From Rhizobium sp. 2MFCol3.1 (GTDB lineage: Bacteria > Pseudomonadota > Alphaproteobacteria > Rhizobiales > Rhizobiaceae): a DNA stretch of 64,000 bases. Positions 38,014 through 42,759 of this stretch are shown one piece after another. Every line of letters begins with the position of its first letter. The stretch's first letter is position 1. The translations under genes were made by a program, and so were the position numbers. Under the pieces are notes generated by a model. That model was not told where the DNA came from and searched no databases. It worked only from the letters and a program-made list of their open reading frames with translations. Location: positions 434,001 through 498,000 of the forward strand of contig NZ_KB898355.1 of assembly GCF_000377565.1 (NCBI RefSeq), in the 5' to 3' direction.

Positions 38014-40101
38014 TTATGCGAGGCCGAGCGAGGCAACGATCATGTCGATCGCCTTGATGCCGATGAACGGTACGATGATGCCGCCGACGCCGTAGATCAA
38101 AAGGTTGCGTGACAGCAGCGCGCCGGCGCCGATCGGCCGGTAGCGCACGCCCTTCAGAGACAGCGGGATCAGGGCAATGATGATCAGCGCATTGAAGATG
38201 ATCGCCGACAGGATAGCGCTTTGCGGCGTCGACAGGCCCATGATGTTCAGGACGCCAAGCTGCGGATAGAACGTCAGGAACATGGCCGGGATGATCGCGA
38301 AATACTTCGCGATATCGTTGGCGATCGAGAAGGTGGTGAGCGCGCCGCGCGTCATCAGGAGCTGCTTGCCGATCTCCACGATCTCGATCAGCTTCGTCGG
38401 GTCGCTGTCGAGATCGACCATGTTGCCGGCTTCGCGGGCTGCGACAGTACCGGTATTCATGGCGACGCCGACATCGGCCTGAGCGAGCGCTGGGGCATCG
38501 TTGGTGCCGTCGCCGCACATGGCGACAAGCTTGCCCTTGGCCTGCTCCTCGCGCATCAGCGCCAGCTTCATCTCCGGCGTTGCCTGCGCCAGGAAGTCGT
38601 CGACGCCGGCTTCGGCTGCGATGGCCGCGGCGGTCAGCGGATTGTCGCCGGTGATCATCACGGTGCGGATACCCATGCGCCGCAGTTCGGCAAACCGCTC
38701 GCGAATGCCGCCTTTGACGATGTCCTTCAGCTGCACCACGCCGAGCAGCTTCCCGTCGCGGGCGACCGCAAGCGGGGTGCCGCCGCTCTTGGCCACTTCG
38801 TCGGCGATCGACTGTAGCTCGCGCGCGGTATCGTTGTTCACGTGCAGAGCAACGGCGGCATTGCCGGTGGCAATCGCGGGAGAGCCATTCACATAGGCCA
38901 GCATCGAATCGACGGCGCCCTTGCGGATCGACGATCCTTCGATATCCACGCCGCTCATGCGGGTCTGCGCGGTGAACGGCACGAAGTTCGCCTTGAGATT
39001 GCTCATGTCGCGGCCACGGATTGCGTATTTTTCCTTGGCAAGGACCACGATCGACCGGCCTTCCGGGGTTTCGTCGGCGAGCGAGGCCAGCTGTGCGGCA
39101 TCGGCAAGTTCCTGCTCGCTGACGCCACGCACGGGATGGAACGCGGTCGCCTGGCGGTTGCCGAGGGTGATCGTGCCCGTCTTGTCGAGCAGCAGCGTAT
39201 CGATATCACCGGCGGCTTCCACCGCGCGGCCAGACATGGCGAGCACGTTGAAGCGGACCAGGCGGTCCATGCCGGCAATGCCGATCGCCGAGAGAAGTGC
39301 GCCGATGGTGGTCGGAATGAGCGTCACGAACAAGGCGACGAGCACGATGATCGGGATCGAGCCGCCGGCATAGGCCGCAAAGCTCGGAATGGTCGCGGTG
39401 GCCAGCACGAAGATCAGCGTCATGCCCGCAAGCAGAATGTTGAGCGCAATCTCGTTAGGCGTCTTCTGCCGTTCCGCACCTTCCACCAGCGCAATCATCC
39501 GATCGATGAAGGTCGAGCCGGCCGCCGCCGTGATGCGCACGCGAATTTCGTCGGAGAGCACCTGCGTACCGCCGGTGACGGCCGAGCGATCGCCGCCGGA
39601 TTCGCGGATGACGGGCGCGGATTCGCCGGTGATGGCGGCCTCGTTGACGGAAGCAACGCCCTCGATCACTTCACCATCGGACGGGATGATGTCGCCGGCT
39701 TCGACCAGCACGATATCGCCGACCTTCAGGCTGGTGCCCGGCACCATCTTGTAGCTGGTCCTGTTCTCGCCGGTCAAAAGCTTGGCCTGGGTTTCGGTAC
39801 GCGATTTGCGCAGCGATTCCGCCTGCGCCTTGCCGCGCCCTTCCGCGACGGCCTCGGCGAAGTTGGCGAAGAGCACGGTGAACCAGAGCCACAGGTTGAC
39901 CTGGAAGGAGAAACCGAGATCGCCACCGCCCGAGACCAGATCGCGAAGGAAGAGCACTGTTGTCAGAACGGAAACCGTGGCGACGACGAACATCACGGGG
40001 TTGCGGGCAAGCGTGCGTGGGTCCAGCTTTTTGAAGGCAGCACCCACGGCGGGAATGAGAATGCGAGCATCCAGGATGCTCGCGGATTTTGCCTGGCTCA
40101 T
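38014..40101 (-). CDS. kdpB: Potassium-transporting P-type ATPase B subunit
   Basis: A 695-residue P-type ATPase that hydrolyses ATP to drive K+ import. The phosphorylated residue is Asp306 in DKTGT, the actuator motif is TGES at 158-161, and the hinge [18 protein letters not shown] is near residue 525. Seven hydrophobic segments are arranged as expected. The start at 40101 has GGAG eight bases upstream. The gap back to the kdpA stop, 209 bases, is unusually long for a kdp operon and encloses a small ORF. Confidence 0.95.
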
Positions 40102-40149: not shown

Positions 40150-40305
40150 TCAGCCAATTAGAATTTTGAAGGCACAGGCCAGCACGAGGAGGATGGCCAT
40201 CATGACGATGATGATGTCGGTGCCTCTTGCCTGCGGCTGCCGCTCACGCCCCGATCTCCTGGGGCGTGACGTGTGTTTTCGTCTGATGTGACGGAGGATC
40301 ATCAT
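40150..40305 (-). CDS. Small membrane protein ORF between kdpA and kdpB
   Basis: A 51-codon ORF read codon by codon from 40305 to a TGA at 40150-40152, starting with two ATGs six bases after the kdpA stop. The first half is very basic (Arg/Lys cluster between residues 5 and 27), and the second half forms one hydrophobic helix, DIIIVMMAILLVLACAF, before the end. A GGTGGG lies just before the first ATG, with spacing suited to the second. A hairpin (40244-40252 with 40261-40269) lies inside it. I know no family for it. Its place in the kdp transcript suggests a small Kdp partner, but this is inference. Confidence 0.5.
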   Translation of the reverse strand: MMILRHIRRKHTSRPRRSGRERQPQARGTDIIIVMMAILLVLACAFKILIG

Positions 40306-40310
40306 CCCAC

Positions 40311-42014
40311 CTAGAAGGTTTGCCCTGTCATCATGGACAGGTGTTCGACGACGGGGCCGAGCGCCAGTGCCGGGAGGAAGGTCAGGCCACCGACGATGAC
40401 GATGGTGCCGACCAGCATGCCGACGAAGAGAGGGCCGTCTGTCGGAAACGTTCCTGCCGATGCCGGCACGGTCTTCTTTCGGATCAGTGATCCGGCAATG
40501 GCAAGTGCCGGGATGATAACCAGGAAGCGTCCCATCAGCATGCCGAGGCCGAGTGTGATGTTGTACCAGGGCGTGTTGCCGGTGAGGCCGCCGAAGGCAG
40601 AGCCGTTATTGGCGGCGGCCGACGTGTAGGCGTAGAGGATCTCGGAGAAGCCGTGCGGTCCCGCTGTTCCCACCGATGCGACGGCGGAGGGAAGCACGCT
40701 TGCGATTGCGGTGAACACCAGCATGGCAAGCGGCAGGCACAGGATGGCGAGCACGGCCATCTTCATCTCTTTCGCCTCGATCTTCTTGCCGAGATATTCC
40801 GGCGTACGGCCGACCATGAGACCCGCCACGAAGACGGCGACGATGATGAAGAGAACGATGCCATAGAAGCCCGCGCCGACGCCGCCGACAATCACTTCGC
40901 CGAGCTGCATGTTGATGAGGGGTATGAGACCGCCAATCGCCGTGAAACTGCCATGCATGGCATTGACCGCGCCGCAGGATGCCGCCGTGGTGATGACAGC
41001 GAAGAGCGATGACATCACGATGCCGAAGCGCACTTCCTTGCCTTCCATGTTGCCGCCGCCAAGCCCGAAGGCATGCATCAGCGGATTGCCGGCGGCTTCC
41101 GCCCAGTAAGTCACGCCGACGCCGATGATAAAGAGCAGGCCCATGGCGGCGAGGATCGCCCAGCCCTGACGCTGGTTGCCGACCATGCGTCCGAAGACGT
41201 TGGTGAAGGCCGCGCCGATCACGAAAATCGACAGCATCTGCAGCATGTTCGAGTAGTTGTCCGGGTTTTCGAACGGGTGCGCGGAGTTGGCGTTGAAGAA
41301 GCCGCCACCGTTGGTGCCCAGCATCTTGATGGCGAGCTGCGAAGCGACAGGGCCAACGGCGATCGTCTGCTGCGCGCCCTCGAGCGTCGTTGCGTTGATA
41401 TAGGGACCAAGCGTCTGCGGGACACCGAGATAGACGTATACCAATGTGAGAATGATGCAGAAGGGCAGCAGCACATAGAGCGTGGCGCGGATCATATCGA
41501 CCCAGAAATTGCCGATCGCCTTGCCAGACGCGCGTGCGAATGCGCGGATCAAGGCGACCGCGATCGCCATGCCGGTCGCCGCCGAGACGAAGTTCTGGAC
41601 CGTCAGGCCCATCATCTGCGTGAGATACGACATGGTGCTTTCGCCGCCGTAGTTCTGCCAATTGGTATTGGCGACGAAGCTGGTGGCGGTGTTGAAGGAG
41701 AGCTCCGGTCCGACCGCTGCCATGCCTGCCGGATTATAGGGAAGCACGCCCTGGAAACGCAGCAGCAGATAGAGCACCAGCACGCCGAGCAGATTGAACA
41801 TCAGCATGGAGAACGCATAGGACGTCCAATGCTGCTCCTCGCGGTCGCTGGTGCCGGCAATGCGGTAAAGTCCCCGTTCAATCGGAACGAGGACGGGGGA
41901 GAGCAGGGTGCGCTCGCCGCCAAACACGCGGGTCATATAGCCACCCAGCGGTTTGACGAGCGCAATAAGGATCCCGCAAAACAGCAGGATCTGTAACCAT
42001 CCAATGAGGGTCAT
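40311..42014 (-). CDS. kdpA: Potassium-transporting ATPase A subunit
   Basis: A 567-residue K+ channel-like subunit with about ten helices. The four pore loops are visible: [38 protein letters not shown], the [16 protein letters not shown] region, and the last around [17 protein letters not shown]. These carry the selectivity-filter glycines. It starts at the ATG at 42014, about 30 bases after the kdpF stop, and ends TAG at 40311-40313. Length agrees with the family. It forms the KdpFABC pump with the genes on both sides. Confidence 0.95.
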
Positions 42015-42045: not shown

Positions 42046-42135
42046 TCAGAAGCGCTCGGGGCGAATGAGGGCGTAGGTGAGGTAGACGGCGAGGAACACC
42101 GTCACCGCACCGCTGAGCACGTAGTCAAAAATCAT
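42046..42135 (-). CDS. kdpF: Potassium-transporting ATPase F subunit
   Basis: A 29-residue one-helix peptide, read from the ATG at 42135 to TGA at 42046-42048: MIFDYVLSGAVTVFLAVYLT then YALIRPERF. This matches the KdpF family closely (a single span, then Y-A-L-I-x-P-E-x-F at the C-terminus). KdpF stabilises the KdpABC complex. It is too short to be seen by most gene finders. It sits in the expected place, 31 bases before kdpA. Confidence 0.92.
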   Translation of the reverse strand: MIFDYVLSGAVTVFLAVYLTYALIRPERF

Positions 42136-42151: not shown

Positions 42152-42235
42152 TCAGAGCGCGTCGCATGCCTTGACGTAGGCAAAGCAGAGCGCGAAAAAA
42201 ATAACGGCGGTGCCGATCAGAACGATGTCCATCAT
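42152..42235 (-). CDS. 27-residue membrane peptide ORF upstream of kdpF
   Basis: An ORF from the ATG at 42235 (a second ATG at 42232) to TGA at 42152-42154, encoding a one-helix peptide MMDIVLIGTAVIFFALCFAY then VKACDAL. GGAAGG lies eleven bases upstream. It ends 16 bases before the kdpF start. Peptides of similar form (hydrophobic, ending in A-C-D/E-x-L) occur before kdpF in many proteobacteria to my memory, usually as hypothetical proteins. It is likely translated, but its role is not known. Confidence 0.6.
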   Translation of the reverse strand: MMDIVLIGTAVIFFALCFAYVKACDAL

Positions 42236-42506: not shown

Positions 42507-42655
42507 CACATTGTTCTCAGGGCGGGGTGCAATTCCCCACCGGCGGTATCGAGGAAACTCGGAGCCCGCGAGCGCCTTCGCCCACAAGCGAAGGGTCAGC
42601 AGATCCGGTGAGATGCCGGAGCCGACGGTCATAGTCCGGATGAAAGAGAGCATGC
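42507..42655 (+). ncRNA. FMN riboswitch (RFN element)
   Basis: The consensus blocks of the FMN aptamer appear in order: TTCTCAGGGCGGGGTG, AATTCCCCACCGGCGGTA, AGCCCGCGAGCG, GGTCAGCAGATCCGGTGAGA, CCGGAGCCGACGGTCATAGT and CCGGATGAAAGAGAG. It controls the ribB gene that follows. After the aptamer, GTCGCA (42663-42668) and TGCGAC (42673-42678) form a small stem, and CCTTGAAAGG surrounds the start region, so translational control is possible. No clear intrinsic terminator is seen. Confidence 0.95.
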
Positions 42656-42759
42656 AGCGGACGTCGCATCCTTGCGACATGTCCCATGTTTGTTCGCCCA
42701 AGGGATGATTGTGGCCTCACGGCCATGCGCGCTGCGCAAGCAGCTAACCCTTGAAAGGC

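Follow-up and report, generated by a model that had tools for sequence, protein, structure and literature searches.

Our analysis indicates that the kdp operon of Rhizobium sp. 2MFCol3.1 contains, between kdpA and kdpB, a small membrane protein gene, here called X. As judged from the way its sequence has changed, X is a real gene that evolves as a protein in Rhizobium. With a probability of about 0.55, we regard it as an accessory subunit of KdpFABC, or a modulator of that pump, restricted to one lineage, with an intercistronic mRNA hairpin also carried in its coding region. A sequence-only reading of this DNA had proposed an extra subunit or inhibitor of the Kdp pump together with a hairpin acting at the RNA level. 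Coding selection, linkage to kdpA, a ribosome-binding signal, one confidently predicted helix and hairpin covariation point to a real gene and a real structured element, and the role at the pump stands as a candidate.

Organisation of the kdp locus

The window, a stretch of 64,000 nucleotides, carries a kdp operon on its minus strand in the order 27-aa ORF, kdpF, kdpA, X and kdpB. The kdpF gene (42046-42135; 29 aa, PF09604 and NF011342) lies upstream of kdpA (40311-42014; PF03814), and kdpB (38014-40101) encodes P-type ATPase domains, all three on the minus strand. The gap between kdpA and kdpB measures 209 nt, and most of it is taken up by X. This gap had been called unusually large for kdp, which is true in comparison with other Kdp lineages, but such a length is normal in the Kdp clade that bears X.

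The hydrophobic ORF seen between the two genes in the sequence-only reading is present at 40150-40305 (minus strand) as a form of 51 codons that begins at the first ATG, with 5 bases separating it from the kdpA stop codon. That stop codon and the Shine-Dalgarno-like AGGTGG of X overlap and together occupy 40307-40313 (minus strand). The Shine-Dalgarno energy is −5.2 kcal/mol for the second ATG (40302), as against −2.1 kcal/mol for the first. Because of this better fit, and of its alignment with the start of the relatives, the second ATG is the likelier start of X, which would make it a single-span membrane protein gene of probably 50 codons (40150-40302, minus strand; 50 aa). The same reading had described the ORF as unannotated. 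Among the 60 of the 74 matching plasmid records that appear in our gene table, which is incomplete, this holds for 28, which show no gene at the site, whereas 25 name a 'hypothetical protein'; X is misnamed phosphoenolpyruvate carboxylase in five, and annotation is absent altogether in two. Records H85-H89, from R. beringeri and R. leguminosarum, carry the name 'phosphoenolpyruvate carboxylase', an evident misnaming.

Coding evidence for X

In the Rhizobium-type alignment, the pN/pS of X in frame was 0.42, compared with 0.88 for shuffled columns, and none of 200 shuffles was as low (55 of the 62 distinct Rhizobium-type sequences, seven rows being dropped, and 400 sampled pairs at 75-99% identity). 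The value was weaker, 0.58, when all pairs of the 62 sequences were taken. The other forward frames gave 1.05 and 1.72, and one reverse frame was likewise low (0.477). In the N-terminal half, pN/pS was 0.446, with 1/200 shuffles as low, and in the helix half it was 0.386 against a null of 0.952, with 0/200. No internal stop interrupts the frame in any of the 55 sequences, while the other forward frames are interrupted in 55/55 and 22/55. The comparison among relatives that the sequence-only reading had suggested was run in this way, and it shows the frame to be maintained by purifying selection in most of them.

When the gap of the window was shuffled 1000 times with its dinucleotides preserved, one ORF was hydrophobic enough and none also matched X in position and length. 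Of the 146 distinct gaps that are 90 nt or longer, 137 contain a hydrophobic ORF, compared with 1.3 expected, these gaps being mutually related. The Shine-Dalgarno energy before X averaged −5.94 kcal/mol at 144 loci (related, and some of them repeated), as against −2.17 kcal/mol at control positions, and a threshold of −5 kcal/mol was passed by 109 of the 144 loci and by 16% of the control positions.

Properties of the predicted protein

X is predicted to have a disordered start followed by one hydrophobic helix at residues 24-49, with a pLDDT of 93-96 over residues 31-50. Lys and Arg number 6.9 before the helix and 0.8 after it, with an excess before the helix in 142 of 144 X proteins. Since the N-terminal side is the richer in these residues, the tail should be cytoplasmic, and the N-terminus is predicted to be inside.

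No Pfam or NCBIfam family fits X. For the window protein, Pfam gave only melan-A (E 0.017), below the cut-off, and NCBIfam gave 0 matches; among 47 members of X, no phospholamban-type Pfam family was found at E up to 0.1, and a comparison with PDB sequences returned only a designed protein (E 0.12). The possibility that X is a translocated or duplicated KdpF was rejected, given the separate kdpF at 42046-42135 and a value of 0.2% in the KdpF profile comparison (hhalign). Similarity to the upstream 27-aa ORF was weak (4.9% in profile comparison). A fused KdpF-KdpA-X model, from which docking of the helix was sought, had a mean pLDDT of 53.7, too low to be used.

Distribution and loss of X

The X profile matched in 121 of 148 genus genomes, a number that includes frame-broken copies and one copy with an in-frame stop (G342), and 145 of the 148 have kdpA. 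All 122 matches in the genus lie within 120 nt behind kdpA. A search of 120 relatives turned up similar ORFs, and all 30 best-match loci are situated between kdpA and kdpB. A hydrophobic ORF occupies the kdpA-kdpB gap at 144 of 265 junctions; apart from the census of 148 genus genomes, such junction counts carry a selection bias, because loci L002-L031 were picked for matching X and L174-L233 mostly for not having been fetched before. Five loci lacking kdpB or a usable kdpA (L059, L098, L222, L233 and L257) were dropped, some genomes are counted twice (L034 and L193, for example, share an identical gap), and L239 and L246 satisfy the ORF rule but are doubtful members of X.

Divergent relatives of X, 25-85 residues long, occupy the same gap in other Hyphomicrobiales. 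X has 47-59 aa in Rhizobium, 54 aa in Agrobacterium, 55 aa in Sinorhizobium/Ensifer, 44 aa in Microvirga, 59-73 aa in Methylobacterium and Methylorubrum, 25-28 aa in Ochrobactrum/Brucella and 68-85 aa in Mesorhizobium, where it ends 4 nt inside kdpB. By hhalign, Rhizobium X matches a bridge group at 97.9%, and the bridge group matches the Mesorhizobium and Methylobacterium forms at 90.9% and 88.0%, respectively; the direct comparison of Rhizobium with Mesorhizobium X gave only 4.1%. A profile made from the bridge alignment had 11 matches in 297 genomes of the order, eight of them adjoining kdpA; it is no census, because it missed X-bearing genomes, such as those of the Methylobacterium type. 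The three weakest matches (E 1.9e-4 to 3.5e-4), away from kdpA, are taken as chance.

The KdpA tree has 198 rows; X is confined to one clade of 148, where 91 rows have it, and is found in 0 of the 50 rows outside that clade, 46 of which have gaps of 7-73 nt. This distribution requires 11-12 gains or losses. X probably arose once, in the ancestor of a single Kdp clade within the Hyphomicrobiales. At one locus (L137, genome G201), a kdpA-kdpB gap of 426 nt contains two tandem hydrophobic ORFs, as if X had been duplicated.

The X match is absent in 24 of the 145 kdpA-bearing genus genomes. Ten of these 24 were examined, and they have gaps of 49-65 nt with neither X nor the 12-bp hairpin described below; all ten belong to a single clade of 14 rows, the other four of which bear X. 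Five frame-broken copies of X were found on five separate tips of the tree, the hairpin being intact in three (L193, L206 and L214) and altered as well in two (L195 and L230). X was also absent at every Bradyrhizobium locus examined, and those within the X clade have short gaps. The X-less genus genomes, the broken copies and the X-less Bradyrhizobium suggest that Kdp works without X, and on this comparative evidence X is useful yet dispensable. Frame disruption in close relatives, which the sequence-only reading had named as evidence against the gene, occurs in a minority only, namely the five broken copies and one X-less sub-clade. We read these breaks as dispensability and not as the absence of a gene, since in most relatives purifying selection maintains the frame.

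A hairpin inside the coding sequence

A hairpin with a 9-bp stem and an 8-nt loop, noticed in the sequence-only reading, lies inside X at 40244-40269 (minus strand; codons 12-20). It is the counterpart of a 12-bp hairpin in the relatives, which covaries. In 54 aligned segments of 45 nt (46 distinct), taken from 60 of which six of other length, the window's own included, were left out, 93.7% of cells are paired along the 12-bp stem, and compensatory double changes occur at 7/12 pairs (37 cells). None of 500 shuffles reached any of five covariation measures, and pairing falls to 27-47% when the partner is slid. Among the deviations at the inner ten pairs, G-U was found 18 times and A-C five times, in related cells whose counts are not independent events; this excess of G-U favours a sense RNA over a DNA palindrome. 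When synonymous codons were redrawn, the average real segment had a more stable fold than its redrawn versions (mean z −1.62), with 19 of 52 at or below the 5% level, 33 not, and the window at 2%. Taken whole, the gap of the window folds no better than its shuffles (z −0.06).

Hairpins of unrelated sequence occur at about the same place in Agrobacterium, Sinorhizobium, the R. freirei group and most Mesorhizobium loci. The X gaps of Ochrobactrum/Brucella have no strong hairpin though the frame is kept, and the gap folds no better than controls in Microvirga, Methylobacterium and some others (L130, L138, L147 and L148). The best 40-nt fold averaged −22.7 in 137 X-bearing gaps and −18.3 in neighbouring coding segments, 98 of the 137 gaps folding below all their controls. 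For X-less gaps the same comparison, made on 31 of 45 nt or longer, gave −15.7 and −14.3, with 12/31 below all controls. Ten X-less gaps of at least 72 nt are not broken X; seven of these have folds of −25 to −32 (L061, L118, L149, L169, L173, L250 and L260), and the remaining three (L111, L164 and L272) lack such a stable fold. Since there are X gaps without a strong hairpin and X-less gaps with stable ones, the frame and the hairpin are, on comparative grounds, separable features.

An intrinsic terminator was rejected, because the terminator-like pattern at the X hairpin is on the opposite strand only. A repeat element was likewise rejected, as the hairpin arms have no second copy at fewer than two mismatches in their own genome, and the hairpin had no Rfam match at the gathering score. 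A second strong hairpin, at 40063-40083 (minus strand), lies in the first kdpB codons and has a terminator-like score on both strands; between 39900 and 42800, five terminator-like sites were found against 2.3 expected.

Discussion

Kdp is a textbook example of a pump, and its structures have been solved. It is described as a four-subunit complex in passages of two papers (PMC10654040, PMC6255902). For the translation of X, its binding to Kdp and its effect, and for the role of the hairpin, we infer the following picture. X would be translated as a single-helix protein of the inner membrane, with its basic disordered N-terminus in the cytoplasm and little outside, and it is probably made from the KdpA/KdpB message by way of the ribosome site that overlaps the kdpA stop codon. 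Three things lead us to place X most likely next to KdpFABC in the membrane: its genus-wide linkage to kdpA alone, a distribution that goes with one KdpA clade, and the small helices already described on P-type ATPases. There it would serve as an optional accessory subunit, stabilising the pump or tuning it in the manner of KdpF and the small peptides of P-type ATPases. The direction of its action may be stabilising, activating or inhibiting. The mRNA hairpin inside X is under selection in its own right; its probable role is that of an intercistronic element acting on RNA stability, gene dosage or the balance of KdpA to KdpB.

Stabilising or REP-like hairpins occur between the cistrons of bacterial operons. 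The X hairpin is like them in being strong, in lying between cistrons and in that the kdp strand of the window shows no terminator-like U-run there, but it differs in being inside a conserved coding frame and in having no close second copy in the genome. MgtR is a single-helix peptide of a bacterial Mg pump. Further precedents, KdpF included, are given for P-type ATPases in PMC10925321, PMC10654040 and PMC6255902, and a passage of the first states that KdpF stabilises the Kdp complex. KdpF (29-30 aa; PF09604, TIGR02115, NF011342) is, like X, a one-helix peptide encoded in the kdp operon. However, X lies between kdpA and kdpB and not before kdpA, in an operon that already has KdpF, and it has a long basic tail and no PERF end. 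Phospholamban, sarcolipin, other SERCA peptides and MgtS of a bacterial Mg pump are single-helix peptides by which a P-type ATPase is tuned or stabilised (PMC10925321, PMC10654040), and the comparison of X with them is of the works-like kind only. The phospholamban-type regulators share with X a basic cytoplasmic tail and one helix (in X by prediction, the Ochrobactrum/Brucella forms being tail-less), whereas X is encoded within the operon of the pump and has no Pfam match to a family of SERCA or Mg pump peptides.

X might be a reversible inhibitor or regulator of Kdp that resembles phospholamban, its tail sensing charge, K+ or phosphorylation and its helix slowing KdpB. The layout of 50 residues, with a basic N-terminal tail and one helix, is alike, and single-helix peptides are described on P-type ATPases in PMC10925321 and PMC10654040. 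We consider this unlikely, as a tail that is poorly conserved between genera, and nearly gone in the 25-28 aa forms of Ochrobactrum/Brucella, ill suits a regulator that depends on it, and the Pfam phospholamban match is absent. It has also to be considered that selection acts on the hairpin and that the frame mainly serves as its carrier, translation exposing or melting the hairpin and so coupling kdpB to kdpA, with a peptide of little function. The very stable hairpins in 7 of the 10 long X-less gaps, the intact hairpin in 3 of the 5 broken copies and the variation across genera of the residues encoded under the hairpin would fit such a carrier. The helix half, however, is under protein selection (0.386 against 0.952, 0/200), Ochrobactrum/Brucella retain the frame without a strong hairpin, the hairpin is altered as well in two of the broken copies (L195, L230), and a hydrophobic ORF is retained in 137 of 146 long gaps, so that we rate this explanation as rather unlikely.

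It is improbable that X is an ordinary small membrane protein whose gene merely travels with the operon while the product works elsewhere, for instance on another K+ system or in membrane stress. Its repeated, tolerated loss would be expected of such a protein, and contact with Kdp is a proposal only; against this, all 122 genus matches adjoin kdpA, and the distribution of X tracks one KdpA clade. The five frame-broken copies and the X-less close relatives might even suggest a spurious ORF in a structured spacer, which is contradicted by the coding test, the genus-wide profile matches, the Shine-Dalgarno signal and the result of shuffling the gap, and is very improbable.

With a conserved extra operon gene in many soil and plant-associated bacteria, the E. 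coli Kdp complex may not represent all. X is a candidate accessory peptide of a bacterial P-type ATPase, and the species with, without and with a broken X form a natural experiment. The locus is also a clear case in which one short stretch is under selection both for a protein and for an RNA hairpin. A bolder version, unlikely to hold as a whole, is a hyphomicrobial Kdp of five parts, or six with the upstream 27-aa ORF. In it, X would be a new subunit that regulates the pump in the way of phospholamban, and its gene would at the same time act in the RNA to set the KdpA:KdpB ratio; if true, a single stretch of 200 nt would exert control through protein and mRNA alike.

A search of the open-access literature found no account of the X gene or the X hairpin. 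In a Ribo-seq paper on S. meliloti, in which the medium had 5 g/l K2HPO4, the word 'kdp' is absent from the main text (PMC10117765). A co-transcription result for S. fredii (PMC9239096) was left out of the case for X, since that strain may lack X.

Other features of the operon and its surroundings

KdpF was recognised by pattern at nearly all loci listed, although for a few of them the 'other' column alone shows it; it was not seen in L032 and L035. Before kdpF, the window has a single-helix ORF of 27 aa (MMDIVLIG...CDAL) at 42152-42235 (minus strand). ORFs like it precede kdpF in operons with and without X, and the site carries no annotation in two records examined. The X-less operons of Bradyrhizobium have a different hydrophobic ORF, of 28-47 aa, between kdpF and kdpA (L068, L070-L075, L078, L081-L084 and L086-L088), which mostly ends about 4 nt before the start of kdpA if a kdpA of 567 codons is assumed. 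Divergent from kdp, an FMN riboswitch (Rfam RF00050, 116 bits) lies at 42509-42655 on the plus strand, and behind it is an ORF at 42751 that we take to be ribB-like.
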